Shown here: piece after piece, positions 2,252 through 25,200 of the stretch | Position numbering within the stretch: position 1 is the first letter of the stretch | Layout: each line of letters begins with the position of its first letter | From: a virus | Length of the DNA: 25,636 nt | IMG/VR virus record: IMGVR_UViG_3300010151_000141 | Span: 1-25,636 of that record | Direction: 5' to 3' (one strand) | Notes under the pieces: model-generated | The model's input: only the letters and a program-made list of their open reading frames with translations | The model's database searches: none | Told to the model about the DNA's origin: nothing | Program-made: the position numbers and the translations under genes

Positions 2252-2666
2252 AGTAATTGAAACTATGTTCAATGGCATGGACAAGGCGAGTCAGAAAGAG
2301 CTGGCGAGTAAAATTTGGCATAACTTTGGAGAGGGTAGTATCACGCTGGCGCCTCGTAAGAAGGCGAGAGCCAAGGGGAAGAAGCCGTACTGGATTCGCA
2401 GAGTTGTTGAGTTTAATGCGCACGAGAAAGGTTTTGCCCAGCTTGGCGGCGCTTGGTGCAAAGCAGAAGATGTAGTAGCTGGCTATGATTTGTTTGTGGT
2501 TGGGGTTGCCGCATGGGCATACGATGGTGGCCCACGTTATGCTGTCGTGACGCCCAGCAGCCTGACAAATTCGGTCTTGGGATTTGATATAAGCAGAGTG
2601 AAGGTAGTTAAATCTTTTGAAAAGTTCAAAGATTTGGCGGACTACGCCAAGGATATTCTGAGCTAA
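2241..2666 (+). CDS. unknown protein, 141 residues
   Basis: I start this at the ATG at 2241, because AAGGGAG (2226-2232) sits about 8 bases upstream; the in-frame ATG at 2223 lies before that site. The protein begins MIYKVIETMFNGMDKAS, has a basic patch (RKKARAKGKK) near residue 40, and then a mixed hydrophobic region with YDLFVVGVAAWAYDGG. No signal peptide, membrane segment or catalytic motif is evident and I do not recognise the family. It is the last gene of the plus-strand operon that contains the VWA protein and is followed by a 110-base regulatory gap. Confidence 0.65.
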   Translation: MIYKVIETMFNGMDKASQKELASKIWHNFGEGSITLAPRKKARAKGKKPYWIRRVVEFNAHEKGFAQLGGAWCKAEDVVAGYDLFVVGVAAWAYDGGPRYAVVTPSSLTNSVLGFDISRVKVVKSFEKFKDLADYAKDILS

Positions 2667-2717
2667 GTCTAAGTATAAAAAAAAAGAGTTGTTGAAAGTT
2701 ACGCCAAGGAGGTGTAA

Positions 2718-2769
2718 AGTGTCCCAAAAATAAGACACTATTTTAATAGTGCTATTTAAGATGAGAGGA
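2718..2769 (+). promoter_or_regulatory. operator/promoter-like element, copy B (AGTGT-N12-ACACT)
   Basis: The 110-base gap between 2666 and 2777 contains the palindrome AGTGT (2718-2722) N12 ACACT (2735-2739). It is followed by ATTTTA and, 9 bases later than in the other copy, TTTAAG. A second small inverted repeat, CACTAT-TTTA-ATAGTG, overlaps its right end. The element precedes the LuxR-type gene start by 38 bases. An almost identical element occurs at 12541-12574 in front of the recombination cassette. Its AT-rich right flank could serve as a -10 region, but no consensus promoter is clear here. Confidence 0.6.
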
Positions 2770-2776
2770 GATTAAA

Positions 2777-3268
2777 ATGAATGAAGAAAGTGATGAGCTG
2801 CGCCTACGCATCACGACACTCGAAACGCAGTTGAAAGTGCATAAGGCGCAAACTGATGCAGCGATTGAGCGATTGACTACGATGCTGACTGAAAGTCTGA
2901 ATACTGATGACAGAGGAGGGCAAGCCGCAAGCCAAGCGAGCCATTGTCTTGCTTGGTTTAAAAATGTGTTGGGAACCATGACGCTCAAACAGCATGCAAC
3001 ATTACAAATGTTGATGGCCCACCAAGGGAATAGCAAGATTTCTGAGGTCATTGGAGTGAAAGACAATGCGTCAAAAATGTATGTACGGGCATTGATGCAG
3101 AAGCTGGAGTTGAGAAAACGTGCCGAGATTGCCATGCTGGCAAACAGGCTGATGAAGGACATTCCAGAAGATGAGTACAGCCGTCTTTCAAACGGCTTGC
3201 CAAAAAACTGGTGGCGTGATCGCCAAGAGCCTGATGAGTTTTATTCCATGTATGGTTCGAGACAGTGA
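2777..3268 (+). CDS. LuxR/GerE-type helix-turn-helix regulator with coiled-coil N-terminus
   Basis: 163 residues. Residues 5-40 look like a coiled coil (ELRLRITTLETQLKVHKAQ). Residues 68-120 match the LuxR/GerE winged-helix pattern: MTLKQHATLQMLMAHQG, then NSKISEVIGV, then a recognition-helix-like segment, then KLELRKRAEIAML, which corresponds to the usual 'KLgvxsRaea' ending. There is no receiver domain, so activity is probably not controlled by phosphorylation. The ATG has AGGAG 7 bases upstream (2765-2770 region). It is preceded by an operator-like palindrome and followed by a strong terminator, so it may be a single-gene transcript. Its position before the integrase suggests control of integration or lysogeny, which is inference. 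Confidence 0.75.
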   Translation: MNEESDELRLRITTLETQLKVHKAQTDAAIERLTTMLTESLNTDDRGGQAASQASHCLAWFKNVLGTMTLKQHATLQMLMAHQGNSKISEVIGVKDNASKMYVRALMQKLELRKRAEIAMLANRLMKDIPEDEYSRLSNGLPKNWWRDRQEPDEFYSMYGSRQ

Positions 3269-3278
3269 CAAAAAATAA

Positions 3279-3303
3279 GGATGCGAAAGCATCCTTTTTT
3301 TTT
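3279..3303 (+). terminator. Rho-independent terminator after the LuxR-type gene
   Basis: Perfect 6-bp stem GGATGC (3279-3284), GAAA tetraloop, GCATCC (3289-3294), followed by nine T (3295-3303). It begins 11 bases after the stop of the LuxR-type gene. Its presence shows that the open frame continuing upstream of the integrase is not its true start. Confidence 0.92.
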
Positions 3304-3318
3304 AAAGGAGGGAACGAT

Positions 3319-4278
3319 ATGTTAGCGTTACGACAGATCGGAAAATATTATTATATTGAAGGCCGCATTGCGGGTAAACGAGTTAGAAAATCGACGAAGA
3401 AGACGGAATTGATTGAAGCCCAAGTCGAGCTTGCCAAATTTATCATTGATGAGGAGACTCGATTAACAAATAAACCAACTCGATTTAATGAGCTGGTAAC
3501 TATTTATAGGAACGGCAAATCAAGAGCGAGGAAAGAGTTGACGAGTAAAGCTGACAGCCAGCTAAGATTAGTCGATGAACTTTTTGGCGCTGACTTGTTG
3601 TCTGAGTTTGAAACATTTTCTGTGTCTGAAAAATTAGACGAGGAGTTGTGGAATCGCGCAGACGGAACAAAGAAGCGCTACATGAGTACAATTATTTCGG
3701 TTTGGAACTACGCGGCCAAGCGCTCGTATGTACCTTTTATGAAATTTGAATGTGAGTACAGAGATGGGCGAGTCGACGACTTCATTAATGCAGACGAACG
3801 CGAGTTGCTGTTGGAACATATGTCAGCGATAAATGAAATGGCGGCGCTCGTGATGGAGTTTCTCTTTGCCACAGGGCTGCGCTATTCAGAAATGCGCGGG
3901 CTGGTTGACAGTGATGAGTACAAAGGTGAGCTGACAGTTTGTAACCATAAAGGCTACCGAGGTGCTGAATTAAAGCGCGTGATACCTATGAACGCAAGAG
4001 CCAGAAAAGGGTGGGTTCGATTGCGCGGAGACTTTGGTTCGTTGTCACCGACAACAGGTTGGTTACGTCATGTCTTGAGGACAGCGTGTGAACAGGTTGG
4101 CACGAAGATGTGGCGGGTACATGATGCTCGACATAGCTATGCCAGTCTACTGGTGAATGGCGGTGCCTCGTTGCTGGAGGTAGCAAGATTGCTCGGCCAC
4201 TCTGAGGTGAGAACAACGGAGCGATACGCGAAAGCCGATAAGGGCAGGTTGCGAGAGGTCGTTGAGCTGCTTTTTTAG
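3319..4278 (+). CDS. int: tyrosine recombinase / phage integrase 1
   Basis: 319 residues from the ATG at 3319, chosen because AAAGGAGGG (3304-3312) lies just upstream; an in-frame extension back to 3265 runs through a terminator. The N-terminal 60 residues resemble an arm-binding domain (YYYIEGRIAGKRVRKSTKK). The catalytic domain has all the expected residues: R188 in ATGLRYSE, HDARH with H268, R271 and H272, LLGHS with H294, and the nucleophile Y303 in ERYAK. The length is somewhat short but complete for the family. It should integrate or excise the element at an att site. The AT-rich repeat segment directly downstream (4279-4694) is the natural place for attP. A second recombinase follows on the same strand. 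Confidence 0.92.
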   Translation: MLALRQIGKYYYIEGRIAGKRVRKSTKKTELIEAQVELAKFIIDEETRLTNKPTRFNELVTIYRNGKSRARKELTSKADSQLRLVDELFGADLLSEFETFSVSEKLDEELWNRADGTKKRYMSTIISVWNYAAKRSYVPFMKFECEYRDGRVDDFINADERELLLEHMSAINEMAALVMEFLFATGLRYSEMRGLVDSDEYKGELTVCNHKGYRGAELKRVIPMNARARKGWVRLRGDFGSLSPTTGWLRHVLRTACEQVGTKMWRVHDARHSYASLLVNGGASLLEVARLLGHSEVRTTERYAKADKGRLREVVELLF

Positions 4279-4549: not shown

Positions 4550-4671
4550 TGAGGTGGAGTTCAACACCACACAGTAATTAACTGTTATTTTTTTAAACAC
4601 CTTTTTAGTTTGGTGTGGCGCTGAAAGGCAGAGCCTGTAAGGGTTTCAAAGCTTTGGAGTAGTCCACCTTA
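4550..4671 (+). other. nested complementary segments, candidate structured leader of integrase 2
   Basis: The RNA of the plus strand could fold with an outer helix AGGTGGA (4552-4558) / TCCACCT (4663-4669), extendable by G-U and U-A. An inner helix is TTCA-N3-CCACAC (4560-4572) / GTGTGG-N3-TGAA (4613-4625). A small hairpin AGGC-AGA-GCCT (4626-4636) follows. A competing hairpin ACAGT/ACTGT (4571-4585), followed by TATTTTTTT, overlaps the inner helix. That arrangement resembles an attenuator, and it ends just before the integrase 2 start. It is not a tRNA: there is no T arm next to the acceptor-like helix. Confidence 0.35.
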
Positions 4672-4694
4672 TGCTATGGGTGAGGGAGGATGAA

Positions 4695-5801
4695 ATGGCG
4701 ACTGTTAAAGTTGTAGGTAAAAAGTATACGGGCGTAGCAAGAATTCGATTGGGAGGACGCATCGTCTTTGAGAAGACAAAAATATTCGACAGCAGGGGCA
4801 AGGCCTACGCGTGGGCTGAGAATCGTGAGCTTGTGGCCAGAGAGGAGAAGCCGTGGCTGGGTGCGAGGCGTGAGGCTGCGTCCGTGTCAGCGAGCATCGA
4901 TAAATATATTGCGGAGCTTGAAGCGATGGATCGTATCTCTGCCGATAAGAAATATTTGTTGAGGCGCCTTGGTAGACGCGACATTGGCAGCATTCCAATG
5001 TCTGATGTGGATAACGCAACTGTCTTTTCTTTTTTGCAGCGAATGACTATTGATGAGCAGCGCGAGCCATCAACAACTAAGAAATATTTTTCCTACTTTC
5101 GCACGTTCATGCGATACGCTCGAACGGCTTGGTCGATGGAGGTGTTAGATGATAGTTCGTTTTCTGACATCGCTTATACAGCGACTGACAGCGGGTTGAT
5201 TAGCGAGGGCAAGCGGATTAATCGTCGACCATTGGTCAGAGAGATTGCGGCCATGTTCGATTTTTGGGATGCAACGAAATCAAGAGGGCTGCGTATTGTA
5301 CCGATGAAGACAATTTTGATGTTCGAGATTATGAGCACTCGGCGCATTTCAGAAATAGTTACGTTGCGCTGGGACGATTACGAGCCGGAGAGAAAGAGGA
5401 TTCTTGTCAGGAATTTGAAAGACCCGCGCCGCAGGGTAGTGAACGAGTGGTCTGTACTGCCTGATGAGGCAATCGAAATCATTGAGCGTATGCCTCGATC
5501 ACATGAATTTATTTTTCCATTTAAAACGCGAACAATTCAAACCAGTTTTGATAGAGCTAGGTACGTTGTTGGTGCGCCTGATCTGAGAGGCCATGACCTG
5601 CGTCACGAGGGCATAAGTCGTCTGTTTGAACTAGGTCTAGGAGTTGAGAAAGTGAGCCTCGTGTCGCTGCATAAGCGATGGGAGACCCTGCAACGATACA
5701 CACACCTTTCCGATGTAGGTATCGTTGACAAATGGAATGAATTTAATTGGCGCGAGAGGCTGGAAACCTTTTACCCACATTCACTTCCTGCCACTGCCTA
5801 G
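4695..5801 (+). CDS. int: tyrosine recombinase / phage integrase 2
   Basis: 368 residues from the ATG at 4695, which has GGGAGGA just upstream (4684-4690); an in-frame ATG at 4671 lacks such a site. The N-terminal region resembles an arm-binding domain (KYTGVARIRLGGRIVFEKTK). A SAM-like core-binding domain follows (IDKYIAELEAMD...YFSYFRTFMRYAR). Catalytic residues are present: R217 in STRRISE, H300 and R303 in HDLRH, H326 in SLHKRW, and nucleophile Y335 in QRYTHL. The LHKRW box, in place of LGHS, makes this a different subfamily from integrase 1. The 3' end overlaps the convergent PrtN-like gene by 59 bases. Two complete recombinases side by side suggest either a two-recombinase system or one element inserted beside another. 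Confidence 0.9.
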   Translation: MATVKVVGKKYTGVARIRLGGRIVFEKTKIFDSRGKAYAWAENRELVAREEKPWLGARREAASVSASIDKYIAELEAMDRISADKKYLLRRLGRRDIGSIPMSDVDNATVFSFLQRMTIDEQREPSTTKKYFSYFRTFMRYARTAWSMEVLDDSSFSDIAYTATDSGLISEGKRINRRPLVREIAAMFDFWDATKSRGLRIVPMKTILMFEIMSTRRISEIVTLRWDDYEPERKRILVRNLKDPRRRVVNEWSVLPDEAIEIIERMPRSHEFIFPFKTRTIQTSFDRARYVVGAPDLRGHDLRHEGISRLFELGLGVEKVSLVSLHKRWETLQRYTHLSDVGIVDKWNEFNWRERLETFYPHSLPATA

Positions 5802-14356: not shown

Positions 14357-15184
14357 ATGAACGATATATGCAAAGCAATTGATGACGCATATCTAAATGA
14401 GCCAGAGGAAACGCCAAGGCAATACATAGGAGCGTCGAGTGTGGGTAACGAGTGTCTAGCGTACCAAGCGTTCAATATGCGAGGATTTCCGAATACGCCA
14501 GCGGCACCAAATTTGAAGCGCATCTTTTCGATGGGTCATTATTTGGAAGATGTTGTGGTTGATGATTTAAAGAAGGCTGGTTACGAAGTGCTAGAAGTTG
14601 ATCCTGACACAAATCGACAATTTGAGTTCTCCCACTGCGGAGGCCATGTCTCTGGACACTGTGACGGAAAAATCAAAGTCGATGGCGAATGGCAGATTCT
14701 TGAGATAAAGAGTATGAACAAAGCCAGTTTCCAGAAATTCAAAAATCATGGTATTGCCAAAAGTCATCCTATGTACAACGCGCAAATGCACATGTACATG
14801 GCGGTGTTTGAATTAACGAAGTCGCTGATGGTGGCCATCTGCAAAGACAATTCTCACTATCATGCCGAGGTCATTGAGTTCGATGATGTTTATTGGAATG
14901 TCATCGAAGACAGAGTTAACAAAGTGCTGTCTGGCTCTTGTGAACGTATCTCTGATCGTAAAGAAAATTGGCAATGCAAGATGTGCTTTAAACGTGAAGT
15001 TTGCTGGGAAACTCAAGATGAGCCAACCGTCCCGAAGACGGCGGCTACATGTAAGTTTGGCGAACCTGACGAGGATCAGGGAGGGTTCAAATGCTCTCGC
15101 TGCGAGACACGAGGTTCCTGCGAGAGTGAAACAGAATGGCGAAGGTTTAACTCGCGCCATTCTGAACTTCTTGAACTTCTTTAG
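14357..15184 (+). CDS. Cas4/RecB-like PD-(D/E)XK nuclease with two cysteine sets
   Basis: 275 residues from the ATG at 14357, which has AGAGG upstream; the open frame before it includes a terminator. The nuclease core has H61 and E64, GHCDG with D103, LEIKS with E116 and K118, and QMHMY with Q143 and Y147. C33 plus C207-x2-C210-x5-C216 gives the iron-sulphur pattern of Cas4 and AddB nucleases. A second, similar set, C232 and C246-x2-C249-x5-C255, lies in an unusual C-terminal extension. The protein should resect DNA ends for annealing. Its stop overlaps the stop of the convergent giant gene (15181-15184). Confidence 0.85.
   Translation: MNDICKAIDDAYLNEPEETPRQYIGASSVGNECLAYQAFNMRGFPNTPAAPNLKRIFSMGHYLEDVVVDDLKKAGYEVLEVDPDTNRQFEFSHCGGHVSGHCDGKIKVDGEWQILEIKSMNKASFQKFKNHGIAKSHPMYNAQMHMYMAVFELTKSLMVAICKDNSHYHAEVIEFDDVYWNVIEDRVNKVLSGSCERISDRKENWQCKMCFKREVCWETQDEPTVPKTAATCKFGEPDEDQGGFKCSRCETRGSCESETEWRRFNSRHSELLELL
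15132..15164. other. 10-bp perfect inverted repeat at the end of the nuclease gene
   Basis: CAGAATGGCG (15132-15141) pairs perfectly with CGCCATTCTG (15155-15164) around a 13-base loop, inside the last 55 bases of the nuclease gene. Opposing transcripts meet here, so it may act as a weak two-way terminator. Only short, poor U-runs follow on either strand. Confidence 0.45.
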
Positions 15185-18100
15185 CGAGAAGCCTCGCCAC
15201 CCAGCCAATCAACTCCCGATTCCTTGAGCTGACGGTTCTGACCTAGCACTGGTATTCGGGAGATGATTTCTCGCCACGCTTGTCGTTCTTTCGCATTTGA
15301 CTCGTCATTGTCGTCGAGAGCGCCGGACACAATATTTACGCCAGTACCGAAGGTGAGGCCGTAGCTTGGCCCTAAGAATGTAGAGGCGATGCGAGTAGAA
15401 CCGTAAGCACCATTGTCGATCTGCTCGGCTGACTGATGGAACAAGTCAGCCAGAAGGCCGAAGCCACCAGCAAACATCAAGCCTTCAAGGTAGCGACCTG
15501 CCAAAGCATCCAGCTCGTTGTCGTCAAAGACTGGGCTGTTCTCATCGCGGCCAAGTGTTTCAAGGAACTTGTTGCCAGAGCGCTCTCGACGCTTGTACTC
15601 ACCACCTTCCTCACCACCTTTGGCGGTGATGGTTTCGCGAAGACCTAATACCTGATCACCCACCATTGGCGCCATAAGTAGCAAGAAAGCGGCTGGTGCA
15701 AAATTCATTGCCTCACCCTTCTTGTACGCGCCGATGGTGTTATCCCATAGTGCCATTCGTGCGAGGCGGCCCATCATAAGGGGAAACGACTTGAACTGAA
15801 ACAATAGAGCGCCAAGCGGTGATTGCCAGACAAGAGGTATGTCGTTCGCGTTAGGTGCAAATACAGACTCGTTAACCATTTTGTGCAGGGCTTCACGAAC
15901 CTGCGGGTTATTCAGCGCAGCGCTGCCTTCTAATGACTCCGCGCCACCCTCCGCGAGATGGCTTAACCCAACTCTTGCTAAGAAGCGTTTAGCTCGTCGG
16001 TATTCGCCAGACTGAATTGACAGGTTGGTGCCATCCCCCTTGACGCTGCGGATCGCAACACGCTGCTCGGCTTTCAGGGTTTCGTAAGCTGCGGCGGCAG
16101 CATAGTCACGCATCACTTCCGTCCACTGGTTGAGACCGATACCTGCAAAGAATGCGTTAGATAGCTTATCGCCTTCGGTGCCTGTCATATATACAATCTT
16201 TTGGTGGGCAATTGAGGACATGCCTGCACCCACGTTGCGGATCGCATCGCGGTAATCGGGATCAGCAGACAGCTTGCCCAAGCCCTTGATGGCTGTGGTC
16301 AGGTTGCCGTTACGAATCACTGGTAACACCAAGTCAGTCATGGACGTGATGACTGTGTAGGACAGCAACGATACCGAGTTGAACATACGCAGGTTCTTGG
16401 AAGCAACGCGACTTGCCTCATGGTAAACACCGCCACGGAAGGGAGAGCGGCCACGCACAGCATCAAAGGTGGCCATCGCGTGTTTATAATCCGTCACGCT
16501 GGCAGCGGTTTCACCACCAGTTTCGGCTAGAGCATTGACGATGGCATCAACACGCTTAATGAGTGCTGGCTGAGATTTCATAGCGAGGCCTAACAAATGT
16601 TGTTTGGCGGCCTCTTTGCCTTCGCTCTTGATAATGTCATTAACAGTGTTAGCAATGTCGAGACCGTGTACTTCATCACGCGCAATTGGCATCATCATCT
16701 GATGCTGCAACTCGAACATAACTTCGCCATCAAACGACTGCATAGTCCGCCGATATACTTTGCCAGAGGAAAGTAGTTTAGCGGCAGCTTTTAGCCCGCC
16801 TTCGTGAACAGATGCGTAGTCGTAGAATGCGTGAGAGTTGACACCATAGTCATCTGTGAGCTGGATGCGGCGTGTGGACTCATTAAAGTATTTGGTCGTC
16901 AGAGCGCCAAGGTCGTTTACAAGGTAGCCTTCCAGTTCTTGCAGATTTTTCTTAGCAAATGGTTCGTCTAAGCGAATGATTCGCGAGAAATCGAGGTGGT
17001 CAGTGTTAGAGCCAACTTGATTATGCGGGTTGGATGGAATGTACACGCCATCATCATCAGTCAGGCGGTTCACCATTCGCTCAGCACGTTTTACGGCTAG
17101 GTCTTCGGCTAGGTCTTCACCACGCTCACGCGCTTCGGCTCGGAAGTACGCCGCCAACTTAGGTATAAACTCGGCGCGGTGCTTACCGATCATGTTGACA
17201 TCCCAAACCTGCGGCAAGTAGTGTTTTATCTCGCCAACGAATAAGCCTTGTTGGCGCATTGTAGCAAGGTCGGCGCGGAACTGTTCGCGCAAGTGCTTGT
17301 ACAAGGCAATCTCATCACCTTGCAGGCGTTTCTCAGCAGCACTACCATCTGGACGGCGCAGGGCTTTCAATACACGCGCTTCGCTAGCGGTTGGTTTGTA
17401 GCCCCATTGGTTGACACGATCTAGGTAACGCTTACCAACACCTTTCTCACCACTGTTGATGCGGTGCAGCAAGGACAAAACCGGCTGAATTTTTTGACCA
17501 GTTTTGGAGCCGTGTTTCTCGTAGAAACCAACGCCATCAACTGGCTTAATCTTGTCTGCCAACCAACTCATACCGGCGCGTCGAATCTGAACAGAGTTCT
17601 CAGCCAGCCCAGTGCTAAATAGTTTTTGCACCTTCTTGGCAAAGTTCTTGGATTCATCGCCGGAGCCAACATAGCCACGCGTGATCTTAGATAAGATGTC
17701 ATTGTAGCCAGATGGATTGCCATTTGTTTCAGACATTGTGGCCACGAGCGTTGCTATATCAGCAGGCGTCACCTTGGTTTCTGGTGTATGAGCCATGCTC
17801 TTGATGACTTCACCAGTGAGCGCTTGAAGGGTTTCTGTTTCGACAGGCATGATGCTTTCTTTAGGTGATGTGAAAGCTTCATCGTCAATACGCTTTAAAT
17901 TGGCGCTATCAAAGATAGCGAAGCTAACGATCCTGTCTTCTTTGTTAGTGTGACCAACTTTGGCTGCCTTATATCCTAGACCAGCCAGATGTGTGGTCAG
18001 CCCTTTAGGAAAATTGTGTTCAATGTTAGATAGCGCTGCGTTGATTGAGTCAGCTTTACCTAAGCGTTCGTTTATACTTCTAGCAGTTATGGGAGCAATG

Positions 18101-21100
18101 TCGCTTTCGTTAACAATCTTCATCAACATGCTGATTTGCGAATTAAGGTCGCCACGATCAGTCAGGTCGACTACCTCAGATGGCTTGATGTTGGTAACAA
18201 CCACAGCATTGTGAGCAGGAACAGTGAAGTCAAACTTATTATATAAGTCGGCTTCTTCGATCTTGACGCTAAGGCGTATTTCATCTATCAATTGTTTAAT
18301 TTCTAAAAGTCTGCCGCGAGCCTTCGCAAGCGAATCACCAGCCTGAAAAGCCATGTGGTTTTCTAAGGTGAAAGATTCCTTGATCAGTTCGGACAGGATT
18401 TCACGATACCTTTCCAGCCCGTTGAACTGAGTTAGAGCGCTCTCCACGTAATCACCTTCGTCAGCGCCGCTGCGGACTGCCGCTCGACGAGCTGCGTTTA
18501 CGAGACTGTTGCGCATGTTCTTGGGCATGCCCTGAGATTCGTTGAACAGGGTGTTGGCGGTATCTGCGTCACGATGCAAACTAATTGCATCACCAAACAA
18601 GCGCGACTGACCATTGCCAGCATGGGGCTTTGAATCGACCATTGGCCTGCTGGTGGAGAAATACATCGTGCCAACACGTCCATCGGTTGAGTCAGTGATA
18701 GAGCCTCTGGTGAAGTTGACAAGATTTTCAACCCCGTCTTCTGGCATATCTCGCACAATGCTAGCGGCATACTCATGGAGTGCATCGGGACTGATATAAC
18801 GAGCATGCAGCTTGTTGAATACGCCATGCGTTTTAGGTGATAGATCGCCAGCAAAAGTTAAGCGGCGGAACATTTGCTTCACATCGTTGCGGCCAATCAT
18901 ACCATTCAAAACATACATCGCGCGTTCGGATAAATTGTCTAACAGTTGATCAATGGTAGACTTGAGCTGGATAGACTGTGAGTCGAATCCGTCACCCTCG
19001 ATATAATCAAGTGAACCAGTTATGTCTTCTTTGGATACGCGATTCGCCAAGTAGTTTGCCCAAGACTCAACGAACCATTCCTCGGCTTTGCTTTCGCCAT
19101 GCCTGCCACTGTAACGGCGTTCTGCGAAATCAACTGCCACCTTATCGCCAGATGCTTTTGCTTGCTCGAATCCCTTGCGGATCGCCACCATGTCATCTTG
19201 TCCCAAGCTACGGCGTAGGATGTGGCCAATTTCGTGCATCAAAATTTGAGGAGATGTGCCTTTATCGGTATTTAAACCAACGATTACTCGACGAAGATCG
19301 GTGCGTAACCCACTGAAAGATTTTTGAGATGCATCAACCATTACCGCGTAGAATTCTTTTTTACCACCTACAACTTCCTCTAACTGAGCGGCGTTTAACA
19401 GCGGTACATCATCCAACTTATCTCGCGTATTCGCGTGGATCAGGTTGTACATGCGATAGAAGAACTTGCGCATATCTGCCTGAACATCTGCGTTACGATG
19501 AGTCAACATCCTCTGGCCATCACGAATAGCGATTGGCGCGTCAATATTAATACCATCTTCGGTGGTGACGGAGGCCATTTCCTTAGTGATGGCTTCCATA
19601 GTTGCGCCATCGCGGATTACATTAGGGCCAGAGAGCGAGTAGATTGAGTCTGTTTCGCTTCGGCGGTACGCTTCAACGTGTAAGTCGTTGATCATTTCAG
19701 TGTCGCCACTATCCAACGCTTGGTTGTAAGCATCACCCAATTGACGAGAGGTCATGGAAGCGAACTTCTTCTTAACTTTGCCAGTGGCTTTTGCGGCTTT
19801 CTTCTTACGTGCGTTTTGACCAATGATAATCTGCTTACGCTTCTTCGACATGGGTGCCTTACCACCTAGATCAACTTCGCGAATCACTTTATCGGAAGGT
19901 AATCGGATTGCATTACCTGTGGACTGATAATAGGAGTCGCCCAAGATTTCGGCGGCTCGCTCAATTAACGCTTTGTTCTCGTCAATTAGCTCGCTGATTT
20001 CCTTGGCGGCAGCGACCACATCCATCGCATCAGCTTGATGCACTTGAAGTGCCAGACCTTCGTCAAAGTCGATCTCGGCACCTGTGGTTTCGATGTACGC
20101 TTCAATGCCACGAATGTCGTCTGGTTTCACCCCAGCAATCGCCGCTGCATTGTCTAACAAGTCTCGCTGGCTTGGAGTTAACTCAATGCCGTCTTCGATA
20201 GCGTCCAAGATATTCTCGAACTCAACTATGTCAAACGCTTCCTCTGGTATAGCAAGTTCACCAGCCGCGCCGGATAGATATTTTACATAGATGGCGTTCA
20301 CATCCTTGGCAAGCTTACGCATGTTGCGAGTCAGGCCTTTCTCGCGGTTTAGGATTTTAAGTTGACCAGTCTTGTTTTTGCCTGCTTCGCCTAAAACGGG
20401 GTCAGTGGTTAAACCGTAGCTAGCAAGAATGCGAGACTCGCTACGCGTCATAGCCAGAGAGTTTAGTGTGCGGGAGAGGTTTCGCGCATCCATGATGATG
20501 TCTTCGCTGGATGTGTTGATCGGCCTGCCTGATACAGACAAGTGACCATTGAACTTTTCCCAAACCGCGTTTAGCTCGGCAATGCGAGTACGGACTACAC
20601 CAGCCGCCGTGGACTCAGTTTTGATTAGATGGGGTGGTAGGTTGGCAGGATCGTAAACGGCAATGGTCTTCTTGGCTTGGCGAGATACGGCAGTGCCTTC
20701 TGGATACAAGCGGTTGAATAGCGCCTCGGTTTGAGGTGATATGCCCTTGTTGTAGCCAGAGAGGGAATGTAAAAGGTCTTTGATGAAAACCGTAACCTTC
20801 GCCCAATAAGACGAGTTTGCTTCAAACATGTCGCTATGGCGATTATTCATTGCCCACTTCGTGAACATGTTGGCAAATAGCTCGTTGCTATCAAGATTTT
20901 CAGCGGTCATCTGCAACATAGCGCTGCGATCTGCGCCGATTGACTCCTTGTTGAAACCGCCAATATCTCCAATTCGGCTGTCATCCAGCTTACCGTTTAC
21001 ATAAAGCATGGATTCGATTTCATTCCAAAATTCCATACGCATCTTTGGTGTCATCACATTGATGTATGCCCAATGGCCAATTTCGTGCAGCATGGTTGCA

Positions 21101-24100
21101 ACGGGTGGGATAAGGTTCTGGTTGCTGGCAACACTAATTACTGAACTACCGTCGGTACCAAAACCGTGTGCCCCATTTGATTTTCTGGTGTGTTGGGCAA
21201 ACATAGGTGCGCCTTCACGAGCCGAAGCGCCTGCCATGCCAGAGATGCCAGAGATGATTTTATCAATAGCATCGTATTGCGCTTGGCCTAACGCCTCTAG
21301 CAAATCTTTAGCGGTGTTCCGGATCGACGGAGAATAGCCTGCCAGCATGTAGCGAGCTGCGGTTACAGCTTTTTTGCGAGACAGGTTGTCGCGCATAACG
21401 CCGTTTGGCACTAAACGAGCGCGAATCTCGTTGATATACTTTGCTTGTTCAATTAGTTTTGGAAAGTCGGCTTGCTTGGCGGGTACTATCAGATTTACTT
21501 CTGTCGCATCTAATAAATGAACAACATCAGCAATGGTTGGCGACCAGCCTCTGATATCGAATTTATTGAGCGCACCAGCATCAACAGCCAAGTTGGTGAT
21601 CTCGGTAATCTCGTTGGCTGACAGGTAGTCCCTTGCATTAAAGTTATGCAGATCGGCAAACTTTGGAACAAAGTCGCTGAATAGAGTGGTGCGAGGCTGA
21701 TCACTTAACGGTTCAAATAGACCGACAACCATTTCACGGTTAGCAGCGTTCACTTTCGGTGCGTTGTCTGGAACTGTACCAACCTGCCATTTCTCGGCAG
21801 GAGAATTACCTAGAATGTGAGCCAGACCTTGGCCGTTGTCGATCTGAGCATCGGTGATGACACGGATAGTTTGGCCGTCAGGGGATAGAATAGCTAAGCG
21901 GTAGCCATCTTGAATTGTAGGCTCCTCGACTTTTTGCAGTTCGGCCTTTGGCTTCGGGTCTTTAGGTTTGGGTGTTGTGGCGTCTGCCGTCTTTGCAGGC
22001 GGTGTCAGTTCAAAGAATGTTCCGGCAGCACGACTGCTTATTTCCTGCTCCAACAGGTAGCGAGAGACAAGAAAGTTAACGATGTTGCCACGTTTCTGGT
22101 ATGGCTTAACCTGTACGGATTCGCGTACACCAGTCTCAGCATCCTTCTTGGTTTTGTGTGTGTGGACAACCAAGTAGTCAGACAGAATTTTGTGTAAGCC
22201 TGTACCCAGAATCTTTTTGCGATCACGGAAGTCCGACACATCAATGTAGCTTGTGATGTCGATTTGATCACGGTGATTTTCGGTAGCGCGGCCAGAAGAT
22301 TGAAGGAGGTCTTTTACAGACTGATAGAACTTCTTGTCGTAAGGAGAGTAATACACGATCTGGCCAGCAGGAATGTAGCTGCGACCATTCTTGTATGTGC
22401 CTTTTGGATAACCGTCTGCCAGTACCATGCGTGAACCGATGGAGCGAGTGGTTAAGAACGCAACAGGGACTTGCTCGTTGGTAGCTTTTGCAACGGCCAT
22501 ATCCTGCGTAAGCACAACCGCTTCGTCCATTGGACGCTCAATAGATTTGGTTTCGCCACGTAAGGCTGCCTTGATGTAGGCGGTAGAGGCTTTCTTGTCC
22601 TTCTTGATGTTGGAGAACATTTCCCAATGTTCTAGGGAAGCGCCACGAACATTGTATTGAGTGCGTAAAATTTCGCGGGCATCTGCTTGGAAGCGTTTGC
22701 GCCAATCCCCAAGATGTTCGTTGATGATTACTCGCTGGTGCTTGTCTGACCAATAGCCAGAGTAGTTGATTTTGAGGACGCCCTTAACCCGCTTCATTCG
22801 CGCTTGGACATACTCATTAATAAAGTCACGAGCAAAGTCTTCGTCTGATCCGCTAGCCATTTCCTTGACGGCAGGCTTGCTATCAGTCTCGTTGGCTTCA
22901 TCATACATTTTCTTGTACAAGCGATAGATTTTTTTACCATCTTTTCGCCCGAACATCGAAACGATTACTCGGCGCATTACTTTAAAGTCGCCTAGTACAG
23001 CTTCGGTGCCGGTCTGAACAATAGAGGTGAACAGGTCGCCAAGTGCGCGAGATACGTCAGCATCAGGAATCGAGTTAGCAAACTCAACAAGGTTTTCAGG
23101 AACATCAAATTCCTCGGCAGCTACTGTGTCGACAGCTTCGGTGATCTTTGCTTTCTCATCGGCTGCTTGGTTAGCTGACGCTCCTTGAGCTGCTTCGCCT
23201 TCGGCTGCTTGGTTAGCTGCTTCGCCTTCGGCTGTCTTAGCTTCGCCTTCGGCTGTCTTAGTCGGAGTGGTGGCTGTTTCGACTTTAGCTGCGGTAGCAT
23301 CTGCTATAGGGTCAGGCTGTTCGATCTTCGCAGCGATGTTGTCGATAGCGCGTTCAATGCGAGTAATCTTATCACCCAGCTTTTCTGCGCCCCATTCACC
23401 AGCATTGTCTGGCTCTAGCAGCTCAAGGATACTGCGGGTGATGGCGTTCTTTTCTTTGCGAGACAGGTTGTCAAAGTCGATCTCTGATCCGTTCTCCAAT
23501 GCACCTGCTGCAAAGGCGCGAACACGATCAGAGAATTCTGCCGCTTTGGTTTTCTTCTTTGGCTTCGTATCCGCTTTAGCTTGCGAGTCTTGTGGAGTTT
23601 GTTCTTTGGCCCTTTCATCTTCGATGATCTGGCGAACAGTAGCAACCGTAGGATGTTCTTCACTAGCAGGAGGTACTTGCTTGGATTCAGCGTCAGCCGT
23701 TTCGTCAATGATTTTCTGTTCTTCGGCTGTCTTCGCCTCGGCCTGCTTGGGTTGGGCTTGGGTCTGAGTCGTCAGAGGTGGTTCCTGTGATGATTGAGCA
23801 GAAGTATTTTGCTCTCCAGTCTGGCTGCTTGTTTGATCTTGAGCGTCCTGCTGATCTTGTTTGGCCTTTTGTTTTGCGCGGGCGGCTTCGGCTTTGGCTT
23901 TTGCTTCTTTGTACCGAGCCAGAGCATCGAGATAAGTTTCGCCTTGCTGGACGGAACCGTAGATTTTTGATCGGATGTTGTAGTCGTTGGCCTTAACGCG
24001 AGCCTCGTCAATTAGCTTTTGAGCCGCCTTACGAGCTGCGCTAGATTCTTCTGGCGTGGCACCTTCTTTGATGCGGCCTAAGATGCCTTCGGCTTCCGAG

Positions 24101-25200
24101 TAAATGCGGCCAATGTCTAAGGCGTCATCTTCAAGCGCTTGTAATAGGCGAGCCTCGCCATCTAGGTCGGCGCGTTCAGCGGTAGTAGGCGGGTTGTCGA
24201 TGTCCTCAATACGAGAGTTAATGGCCTTGCGAGCATTATTGATCATATCAATATCAATATCTAACTGTTCGCGCTGACCCAGCGTTGAAGTGCCTTCGGA
24301 TTCATCCACAGAAGGTGTCAGTTCTGTTTCTTTGGGTTCTGGATTAACGGCCTTGACGTAAGCTTCATGATTTTTGAAACTCAGTAGAGCATCAATACCA
24401 TTAGCGCCACTGGTGTTGGCGGCTACATTAATTTCATCTTGCGAGAAACCGCGATCCAAAAGGGTTTTGTTGTCTTTAAGGATTTTTGAACGGGCCAGAG
24501 GAGTTGTTGCCGCACCTAGCAATGCAGAAATACCCCAGTTGCCGACAGCGCCGACAGCTACCGAAGCACCCAGTTGCAGCATGGAGTGATCGTCTTGTAT
24601 GCCCAAGTCCATATCACGATTTTGATTGGCTGTGTCGATTGCTGCTTCTGACCCTGCACCTGCCAGAAACTGATGCTTAGCACCTGCCATGCCAGCTTTA
24701 CCAGCAGCTTTCAATGCGCTCTCGCCAGCAAGCAAGGAGCCTCTTGCCACCTGTTTGGCAGCACCGCCACCGACTACGTTTGATGGGTTAAGTATATTAG
24801 CGCCAGCTAATGTTTTGGTGATCTCGGCTCCAGATAAATGGTCTGAAATCGAACCGGCTCTTGCTTCTGTGGTCAGGACGTTTGGCATTCTTTCGTAAGC
24901 TTGCGTTAAGCGAGCCATGCGGTCTTTGGCTTCACCTTGCAGGCCTTTCACACTGAGATACCCAGCATCACCGACAAATGCGCCTATCTCGTTCATATAT
25001 GCATAAGATTGTTCGTTGTACCATTCAGCTAGTGCTTCCTCGAACGTGGCATCGCTCATGCCTTGGGCGCGAGCATTATCCATAATGTCACGGCGGAAGA
25101 AGGGGTCGTTTAGAATGTCTCTAGGATCGACTGCTGAGTAGTCGTAATTGGGGGCAGATGTAGATGAGCCAAAATCATTGAAGGTTATAACCTTTGGCAT
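15181..25200 (-). CDS. giant polyvalent virion-type protein with two zincin sites
   Basis: 3339 residues. The N-terminus has a hydrophobic alanine/glycine-rich segment around 209-234. Low-complexity charged regions lie near 444-490 and 648-681. A zincin-type site is at HEIGH 1372-1376, with a possible third ligand E1440 in SNELFANMF. A second is at HEIGH 1989-1993, with EEWFVESW around 2040-2045. Residues about 2170-2440 look like a degenerate ADP-ribosyltransferase-type region. The C-terminal 400 residues include hydrophobic segments at 2941-2961 and 3168-3187. Very long multi-domain proteins like this occur as internal or ejected virion proteins in podoviruses and as polyvalent proteins in other phages; which applies here is inference. 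The ATG has TGGAGT 8 bases upstream. Confidence 0.8.
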   Translation of the reverse strand: MPKVITFNDFGSSTSAPNYDYSAVDPRDILNDPFFRRDIMDNARAQGMSDATFEEALAEWYNEQSYAYMNEIGAFVGDAGYLSVKGLQGEAKDRMARLTQAYERMPNVLTTEARAGSISDHLSGAEITKTLAGANILNPSNVVGGGAAKQVARGSLLAGESALKAAGKAGMAGAKHQFLAGAGSEAAIDTANQNRDMDLGIQDDHSMLQLGASVAVGAVGNWGISALLGAATTPLARSKILKDNKTLLDRGFSQDEINVAANTSGANGIDALLSFKNHEAYVKAVNPEPKETELTPSVDESEGTSTLGQREQLDIDIDMINNARKAINSRIEDIDNPPTTAERADLDGEARLLQALEDDALDIGRIYSEAEGILGRIKEGATPEESSAARKAAQKLIDEARVKANDYNIRSKIYGSVQQGETYLDALARYKEAKAKAEAARAKQKAKQDQQDAQDQTSSQTGEQNTSAQSSQEPPLTTQTQAQPKQAEAKTAEEQKIIDETADAESKQVPPASEEHPTVATVRQIIEDERAKEQTPQDSQAKADTKPKKKTKAAEFSDRVRAFAAGALENGSEIDFDNLSRKEKNAITRSILELLEPDNAGEWGAEKLGDKITRIERAIDNIAAKIEQPDPIADATAAKVETATTPTKTAEGEAKTAEGEAANQAAEGEAAQGASANQAADEKAKITEAVDTVAAEEFDVPENLVEFANSIPDADVSRALGDLFTSIVQTGTEAVLGDFKVMRRVIVSMFGRKDGKKIYRLYKKMYDEANETDSKPAVKEMASGSDEDFARDFINEYVQARMKRVKGVLKINYSGYWSDKHQRVIINEHLGDWRKRFQADAREILRTQYNVRGASLEHWEMFSNIKKDKKASTAYIKAALRGETKSIERPMDEAVVLTQDMAVAKATNEQVPVAFLTTRSIGSRMVLADGYPKGTYKNGRSYIPAGQIVYYSPYDKKFYQSVKDLLQSSGRATENHRDQIDITSYIDVSDFRDRKKILGTGLHKILSDYLVVHTHKTKKDAETGVRESVQVKPYQKRGNIVNFLVSRYLLEQEISSRAAGTFFELTPPAKTADATTPKPKDPKPKAELQKVEEPTIQDGYRLAILSPDGQTIRVITDAQIDNGQGLAHILGNSPAEKWQVGTVPDNAPKVNAANREMVVGLFEPLSDQPRTTLFSDFVPKFADLHNFNARDYLSANEITEITNLAVDAGALNKFDIRGWSPTIADVVHLLDATEVNLIVPAKQADFPKLIEQAKYINEIRARLVPNGVMRDNLSRKKAVTAARYMLAGYSPSIRNTAKDLLEALGQAQYDAIDKIISGISGMAGASAREGAPMFAQHTRKSNGAHGFGTDGSSVISVASNQNLIPPVATMLHEIGHWAYINVMTPKMRMEFWNEIESMLYVNGKLDDSRIGDIGGFNKESIGADRSAMLQMTAENLDSNELFANMFTKWAMNNRHSDMFEANSSYWAKVTVFIKDLLHSLSGYNKGISPQTEALFNRLYPEGTAVSRQAKKTIAVYDPANLPPHLIKTESTAAGVVRTRIAELNAVWEKFNGHLSVSGRPINTSSEDIIMDARNLSRTLNSLAMTRSESRILASYGLTTDPVLGEAGKNKTGQLKILNREKGLTRNMRKLAKDVNAIYVKYLSGAAGELAIPEEAFDIVEFENILDAIEDGIELTPSQRDLLDNAAAIAGVKPDDIRGIEAYIETTGAEIDFDEGLALQVHQADAMDVVAAAKEISELIDENKALIERAAEILGDSYYQSTGNAIRLPSDKVIREVDLGGKAPMSKKRKQIIIGQNARKKKAAKATGKVKKKFASMTSRQLGDAYNQALDSGDTEMINDLHVEAYRRSETDSIYSLSGPNVIRDGATMEAITKEMASVTTEDGINIDAPIAIRDGQRMLTHRNADVQADMRKFFYRMYNLIHANTRDKLDDVPLLNAAQLEEVVGGKKEFYAVMVDASQKSFSGLRTDLRRVIVGLNTDKGTSPQILMHEIGHILRRSLGQDDMVAIRKGFEQAKASGDKVAVDFAERRYSGRHGESKAEEWFVESWANYLANRVSKEDITGSLDYIEGDGFDSQSIQLKSTIDQLLDNLSERAMYVLNGMIGRNDVKQMFRRLTFAGDLSPKTHGVFNKLHARYISPDALHEYAASIVRDMPEDGVENLVNFTRGSITDSTDGRVGTMYFSTSRPMVDSKPHAGNGQSRLFGDAISLHRDADTANTLFNESQGMPKNMRNSLVNAARRAAVRSGADEGDYVESALTQFNGLERYREILSELIKESFTLENHMAFQAGDSLAKARGRLLEIKQLIDEIRLSVKIEEADLYNKFDFTVPAHNAVVVTNIKPSEVVDLTDRGDLNSQISMLMKIVNESDIAPITARSINERLGKADSINAALSNIEHNFPKGLTTHLAGLGYKAAKVGHTNKEDRIVSFAIFDSANLKRIDDEAFTSPKESIMPVETETLQALTGEVIKSMAHTPETKVTPADIATLVATMSETNGNPSGYNDILSKITRGYVGSGDESKNFAKKVQKLFSTGLAENSVQIRRAGMSWLADKIKPVDGVGFYEKHGSKTGQKIQPVLSLLHRINSGEKGVGKRYLDRVNQWGYKPTASEARVLKALRRPDGSAAEKRLQGDEIALYKHLREQFRADLATMRQQGLFVGEIKHYLPQVWDVNMIGKHRAEFIPKLAAYFRAEARERGEDLAEDLAVKRAERMVNRLTDDDGVYIPSNPHNQVGSNTDHLDFSRIIRLDEPFAKKNLQELEGYLVNDLGALTTKYFNESTRRIQLTDDYGVNSHAFYDYASVHEGGLKAAAKLLSSGKVYRRTMQSFDGEVMFELQHQMMMPIARDEVHGLDIANTVNDIIKSEGKEAAKQHLLGLAMKSQPALIKRVDAIVNALAETGGETAASVTDYKHAMATFDAVRGRSPFRGGVYHEASRVASKNLRMFNSVSLLSYTVITSMTDLVLPVIRNGNLTTAIKGLGKLSADPDYRDAIRNVGAGMSSIAHQKIVYMTGTEGDKLSNAFFAGIGLNQWTEVMRDYAAAAAYETLKAEQRVAIRSVKGDGTNLSIQSGEYRRAKRFLARVGLSHLAEGGAESLEGSAALNNPQVREALHKMVNESVFAPNANDIPLVWQSPLGALLFQFKSFPLMMGRLARMALWDNTIGAYKKGEAMNFAPAAFLLLMAPMVGDQVLGLRETITAKGGEEGGEYKRRERSGNKFLETLGRDENSPVFDDNELDALAGRYLEGLMFAGGFGLLADLFHQSAEQIDNGAYGSTRIASTFLGPSYGLTFGTGVNIVSGALDDNDESNAKERQAWREIISRIPVLGQNRQLKESGVDWLGGEASR
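23160..23265 (-). repeat. tandem repeats coding for AEGEA segments
   Basis: Within the giant gene the DNA repeats units that encode KTAEGEA twice, then ANQAAEGEA and ASANQAA, around residues 648-681. It is an imperfect in-frame repeat and would form a flexible, alanine/glutamate-rich linker between domains. Confidence 0.75.

Follow-up and report, generated by a model that had tools for sequence, protein, structure and literature searches.

Phage polyvalent proteins that carry one to five MPTase domains, about 8% of them having more than one, and that may carry ADP-ribosyltransferase (ART) domains too were described by Iyer et al. in 2017, who proposed self-processing or host cleavage as the role of the MPTase domains (PMC5512222). 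Polyvalent proteins with several zincins have been known since then. A second relevant system is the virion RNA polymerase (vRNAP) of phage N4, a giant chain of about 3,500 residues with an RNA polymerase and one HExxH (PMC12633501, PMC5512222), for which ejection as a chain of beads has been proposed (PMC12633501). The third is T7 gp16, described as a 1,318-aa protein that bears a transglycosylase at its N-terminus, a description in which zincins and ART do not figure (PMC8954989). It exits the head, its N-terminal part becomes part of the periplasmic tunnel, and the C-terminal part is believed to reside in the host cytoplasm (PMC8954989). CRP-810-type phages, a temperate marine family, were described in 2024, in a paper whose text does not mention proteases (PMC11288001).

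The window, meaning the whole stretch of DNA that was analysed, is an entire virus record of 25,636 bases. Its genes for a primase-polymerase (48%), an AAA ATPase (53%), an SSB-like protein, a YqaJ-type nuclease (43%) and a resolvase (48%) are 34-53% identical to those of CRP-810 and follow each other in identical order, which identifies the window as a CRP-810-type phage. The window also has a CobT-like gene (73-2055) and a gene for a LuxR-type regulator (2777-3268), both reported for CRP-810-type phages as well, and two adjacent but differing tyrosine recombinase genes (3265-4278 and 4671-5801).

A sequence-only reading had placed one giant protein of 3339 residues at 15181-25200. This was borne out by an open frame of 3,339 codons, with the correction that the gene lies on the minus strand; the plus strand of the same stretch is interrupted by stop codons throughout. 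Since full-length relatives with 46-49% identity and remoter ones with 23-24% identity exist, the ORF is a real gene. CRP-810 carries the same protein, with both of the metal-binding motifs discussed below and with the same neighbouring genes, as gp34-gp36 (OR671924; PMC11288001), annotated as hypothetical save for gp36, 'internal virion protein D'. In CRP-810 the protein is divided into three overlapping genes (locus L014, 9571-19211) that are split at module borders, whereas the window has a single ORF. The features of the gene are as follows.

15181..25200, minus strand: whole gene of the 3,339 aa giant protein (open frame; relatives; Roseobacter phage CRP-810 gp34-gp36)
24301..25200, minus strand: N-terminal module rich in Ala and Gly, residues 1-300 (PHROG 342 matches in relatives)
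20818..21285, minus strand: zincin-like domain 1, residues about 1306-1461 (pattern P-H-E-H-W-Y...E-A-F, shared without exception by 62 family members; model)
21073..21087, minus strand: site 1, HEIGH, residues 1372-1376 (motif count; family alignment)
20881..20883, minus strand: predicted third zinc ligand of site 1, E1440 (invariant in 62/62; profile-aligned with E2041)
18841..19581, minus strand: zincin-like module 2, residues about 1874-2120 (relatives; profile match to domain 1)
19222..19236, minus strand: site 2, HEIGH, residues 1989-1993 (motif count; family alignment)
19078..19080, minus strand: predicted third zinc ligand of site 2, E2041 (relatives; profile comparison)
17851..18675, minus strand: degenerate ART (ART-PolyVal) region, residues about 2176-2450 (PF18760 in relatives; residue table)
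15184..17823, minus strand: C-terminal module, residues 2460-3339, predicted T7 gp16-C-like ejectosome core domain, with the structural match at residues about 2534-3118 (model; VIA-align)

Relatives were collected by scanning viral contigs with the window as query (12 loci), with site 2 (64 loci) and with site 1 (186 loci, of which 80 were kept), and after removal of duplicates 81 non-identical versions were compared. Among 50,697 phage records CRP-810 was the only match, and a genome scan found no relatives. A single ORF holds all four modules in 56 of the 60 versions that show all four; separate genes for single modules occur in L017, L018 and L132. In another locus (L024), 92% identical to CRP-810 in the C-terminal module, the border between ART and this module is read through in one frame. 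With the whole 3,339-aa protein as query, Pfam, PHROGs and NCBIfam gave nothing but a sub-threshold match to M78, and a sequence search for solved structures gave no hit.

The two HEIGH motifs start at residues 1372 and 1989, exactly the 617 residues apart that had been noted from the sequence. Such an arrangement is not expected by chance: two or more HExxH were found in 0.25% of 2,000 shuffles of the protein, and a shuffled protein is expected to hold 0.07 HExxH and 0.0003 HEIGH. The aromatic, glutamate-rich helix that had been claimed behind each site was also recovered, as E1440-LFANMFTKW for site 1 and as AEE-WFVESWANYL with E2041 for site 2; relatives conserve the two helices.

The two sites differ in how strictly they are kept. 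At site 1 the HExxH, followed by E-x-F-A-x-x-F, is intact in 77/77 versions with a complete region, and E1440, which is helix-borne in the model, is present in all 62 family members aligned. Because some loci had been fetched with site-1 patterns, those fetched with site 2 as bait were counted apart; site 1 and its glutamate were intact in each of the 36 complete cases. Site 2, that is HExxH plus downstream glutamate, is present in the window protein and in 56 of 81 versions and is destroyed in the other 25; among loci fetched with site 1 it is intact in 33 of 56. Mapped onto a tree of the C-terminal module only, site 2 switches between intact and destroyed no fewer than seven times; the tree was quickly made and has a number of long branches, so that this figure is approximate, and the tree by itself does not separate loss from gain. 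Other parts of the module were still matched in six of the HExxH-less cases examined. Alignment error as the source of HExxH-less versions was rejected, because a scan of the whole ORFs shows a second HEIGH-like site in one locus only (L090). Thus, site 1 is kept in every relative examined, and site 2 was lost repeatedly. The exceptional locus, in which the site-2 motif is lost, carries a second complete copy of the domain-1 zincin at ORF residues 2196-2437 (E 6.9e-40). A clade without site 2 (L060, L080, L087 and kin) has a conserved HERMxH string, with HExxxH spacing, in the C-terminal module.

To assess the nature of the two sites, profiles were compared with each other and with known families. 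The profile of domain 1 matched that of intact domain 2 with a score of 60.4, compared to a maximum of 24.4 in 100 column shuffles. When HExxH was masked on both sides, the best residual match was the glutamate helix, which aligned E1440 to E2041 (29.4 compared to 19.1 for shuffled profiles). By these profile comparisons sites 1 and 2 are paralogous. Domain 1 also matched the profile of the N4 vRNAP metallopeptidase domain (41.7; shuffled maximum 20.8). The best of its weak Pfam matches include several metallopeptidases (DUF6782 at 9e-6, M91, ATLF, MPTase-PolyVal, SprT and M48). With the window protein itself as query, the cut-offs of curated zincin families were not reached, the best being M78 with 13.9 bits against 22 (E 0.048), and PF18818 (MPTase-PolyVal) gave no match. 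A search of the PDB with the site-1 profile returned non-significant matches only (E 0.7-1.3), 15 of 17 of which are one metalloprotease (Zmp1/Pro-Pro endopeptidase); in the alignments displayed, non-significant as they are, the glutamate helix of site 1 is in register.

Structure prediction of both regions, which the sequence-only reading had proposed as a check, was run on residues 1215-2330 with AlphaFold2 (1,116 residues; mean pLDDT 70, pTM 0.43). Domain 1 is modelled as a helix, three strands, the HExxH helix and the glutamate helix, with pLDDT about 65-90, and a fold search of the PDB gave no confirming match. This order of elements is the one described for polyvalent MPTases (PMC5512222) and thus fits a zincin. 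The model of domain 2, on the other hand, contains both catalytic helices but is all-helical at high pLDDT, without the zincin beta sheet; the profile comparison pairs the segment before the site-2 HEIGH with a strand of domain 1. Foldseek and VIA-align searches of the PDB with the 1,116-residue model matched mainly a long helical pair at the end of the model and returned no known zincin, and since the matches concern mainly this terminal pair, these searches say nothing for or against zincins. Taken from sequence comparison, both sites look like genuine zincin-type sites. The earlier idea of a double protease therefore stands in part: there are two zincin-type sites that are related to each other and whose third-ligand helices are conserved, but the second has lost its catalytic residues in 25 of 81 versions, and its model lacks the sheet.

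Between these domains and the C-terminus, PF18760 (ART-PolyVal) was matched behind site 2 in 31 of 54 family members. The YHGT...GxGxY of relatives reads YFST...GDAIS in the window protein. The histidine of YHGT is retained in 49 of 54 alignment rows and is missing just in the window, L002, L004 and L007, which form the window clade, and in L094. Absence of this histidine from the window and its closest kin makes an inactive ART probable in this phage, whereas the ART residues of CRP-810 are intact.

The N-terminal module matched PHROG 342, 'internal virion protein with endolysin domain', in 4 of 23 family members (best 1.4e-8), which gives it a weak likeness to T7 gp16 and the core proteins of PhiM1 and E1004. 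An N-terminal transglycosylase of the T7 type was not matched on the window protein in Pfam or PHROGs; it is a feature of the T7 type only and is not present in the P22 type (PMC8954989). Kinship of the module with the N4 N-terminal domain was considered on account of matches to PHROG 2206 (5.8e-5), but was unsupported by direct comparison and is not claimed.

The C-terminal 880 residues were modelled with pLDDT 76.7 and pTM 0.79. Foldseek alone gave no significant match for this model. When its candidates were scored by VIA-align, four podophage ejection core proteins stood out, namely T7 9jyy_I (Z 13.1; 272 residues, rmsd 5.5), PhiM1 8vb2_A (12.3), E1004 9vvp_W (11.5) and T7 7eyb_I (11.3); the next, unrelated structure reached 4.9 and the rest no higher. 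Mostly helical models may reach Z 11-13 without kinship, and we take the match as true because of the sharp gap in Z and because all four matches belong to one functional class. The C-terminal module thus looks, in its model, like a gp16-like ejection-core fold. The corresponding CRP-810 protein, gp34, matched PHROG 684, 'virion structural protein', at 5e-25.

The window protein can now be set beside the known systems. Like the polyvalent MPTase proteins (PMC5512222) it is large and multidomain, with zincins and ART, and the proposal of a polyvalent protein is supported by the presence in one chain of two zincin-type domains, an ART (in relatives) and a virion-type C-terminus. It differs in that the zincins are joined to a T7 gp16-C-like ejectosome domain, and PMC5512222 uses neither the word gp16 nor the word ejection. 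With N4 vRNAP it shares the giant chain and a similar site-1 profile, but it has two HExxH instead of one, and no RNA polymerase domain was found in it in Pfam, PHROGs or NCBIfam searches.

Computation establishes the ORF, the two conserved sites, their kinship and unequal conservation, and the predicted gp16-like C-terminal fold. We think it rather probable that this giant chain is the ejection protein of a temperate marine phage of the CRP-810 type, a counterpart of T7 gp16 and N4 vRNAP, with cargo placed between terminal delivery modules: a pair of paralogous zincin-type domains plus an ART domain that is probably dead here. Judged from structure, the N-terminal and gp16-C-like modules would serve packaging and passage through the tail and a channel into the host. 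By analogy with T7 gp16 and N4, the chain would be packaged and threaded through the tail, and the C-terminal module would end at or inside the inner membrane, with the zincins carried along. That site 1 never varies, even between divergent phages, points to a phage-borne substrate, most simply the protein itself. It is quite possible, if a little short of probable, that site 1 acts on the phage's own proteins, and first on this one, which it would cleave at the borders of its modules in the course of entry or afterwards, letting the cargo part from the ejectosome. The separate CRP-810 genes, split at such borders, indicate that the modules are able to work as separate chains. Site 2 and ART would behave as exchangeable effectors, and site 2 may, with somewhat less confidence, be an accessory protease against host proteins that lineages drop or replace. 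That all of this holds together, with zincin 1 cutting the borders at entry and parting the channel-forming ends from an injected second protease and ART effectors, is a tentative proposal and as a whole rather unlikely.

Alternatively, both sites might be injected host-directed proteases in a giant chain that stays unprocessed. N4 vRNAP, the most familiar example of such a protein, is packaged without being cut despite its HExxH domain, which also argues against self-cutting, and host cleavage has been named as a possible role of such domains (PMC5512222). Site 2 and ART differ between lineages as host-directed effectors do. Site 1, in contrast, is invariant across divergent family members, although a conserved host target could also account for its constancy, and we consider this reading credible but unlikely. 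An assembly role, in which site 1 is a protease of the head-maturation type that cuts virion proteins, this one included, ahead of packaging or while it proceeds, would suit the invariance of site 1 as an essential step and has a precedent in P1 DdrB, a protein with a C-terminal zincin that undergoes cleavage before it is packaged (PMC5512222); in this analysis, however, no link of the gene to capsid maturation and no cleavage sites were identified, and such a role seems improbable. Most improbable are non-protease sites, with site 1 holding a metal for another reaction (e.g. as an alpha-ketoglutarate-type HExxH enzyme) or the domains being mere structural beads: HExxH also occurs in radical-SAM enzymes according to the N4 structure paper, which cites alphaKG-HExxH domain proteins (PMC12633501), and site 2 is dispensable and modelled as all-helical, but site 1 invariably has a gluzincin-type glutamate helix downstream, which site 2 shares, and the metallopeptidases among the weak Pfam matches of domain 1 and its profile match to the N4 metallopeptidase domain speak against this.

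Two features appear to be new, namely that zincins are fused to a core domain of the ejectosome type and that the two sites are conserved so differently. What goes beyond the 2017 survey is the gp16-C-like partner, the relationship between the sites and the difference in how well they are kept. That survey left open the role of zincin domains in phage polyvalent proteins, for which this family is a natural test: in one chain, with a C-terminus like the T7 ejection core, one site is never lost and its paralogue is lost repeatedly. One member, CRP-810, has been cultured together with its marine host, FZCC0198. Two strong fold matches to the two-site region were also obtained by Foldseek in BFVD, both with probability 1.00. 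These are the uncultured Caudovirales phage proteins A0A6J7WQH2 and A0A6J5NQ20 (UniProt), which are alike in fold over this region and are named just 'Large polyvalent protein associated domain-containing protein'.
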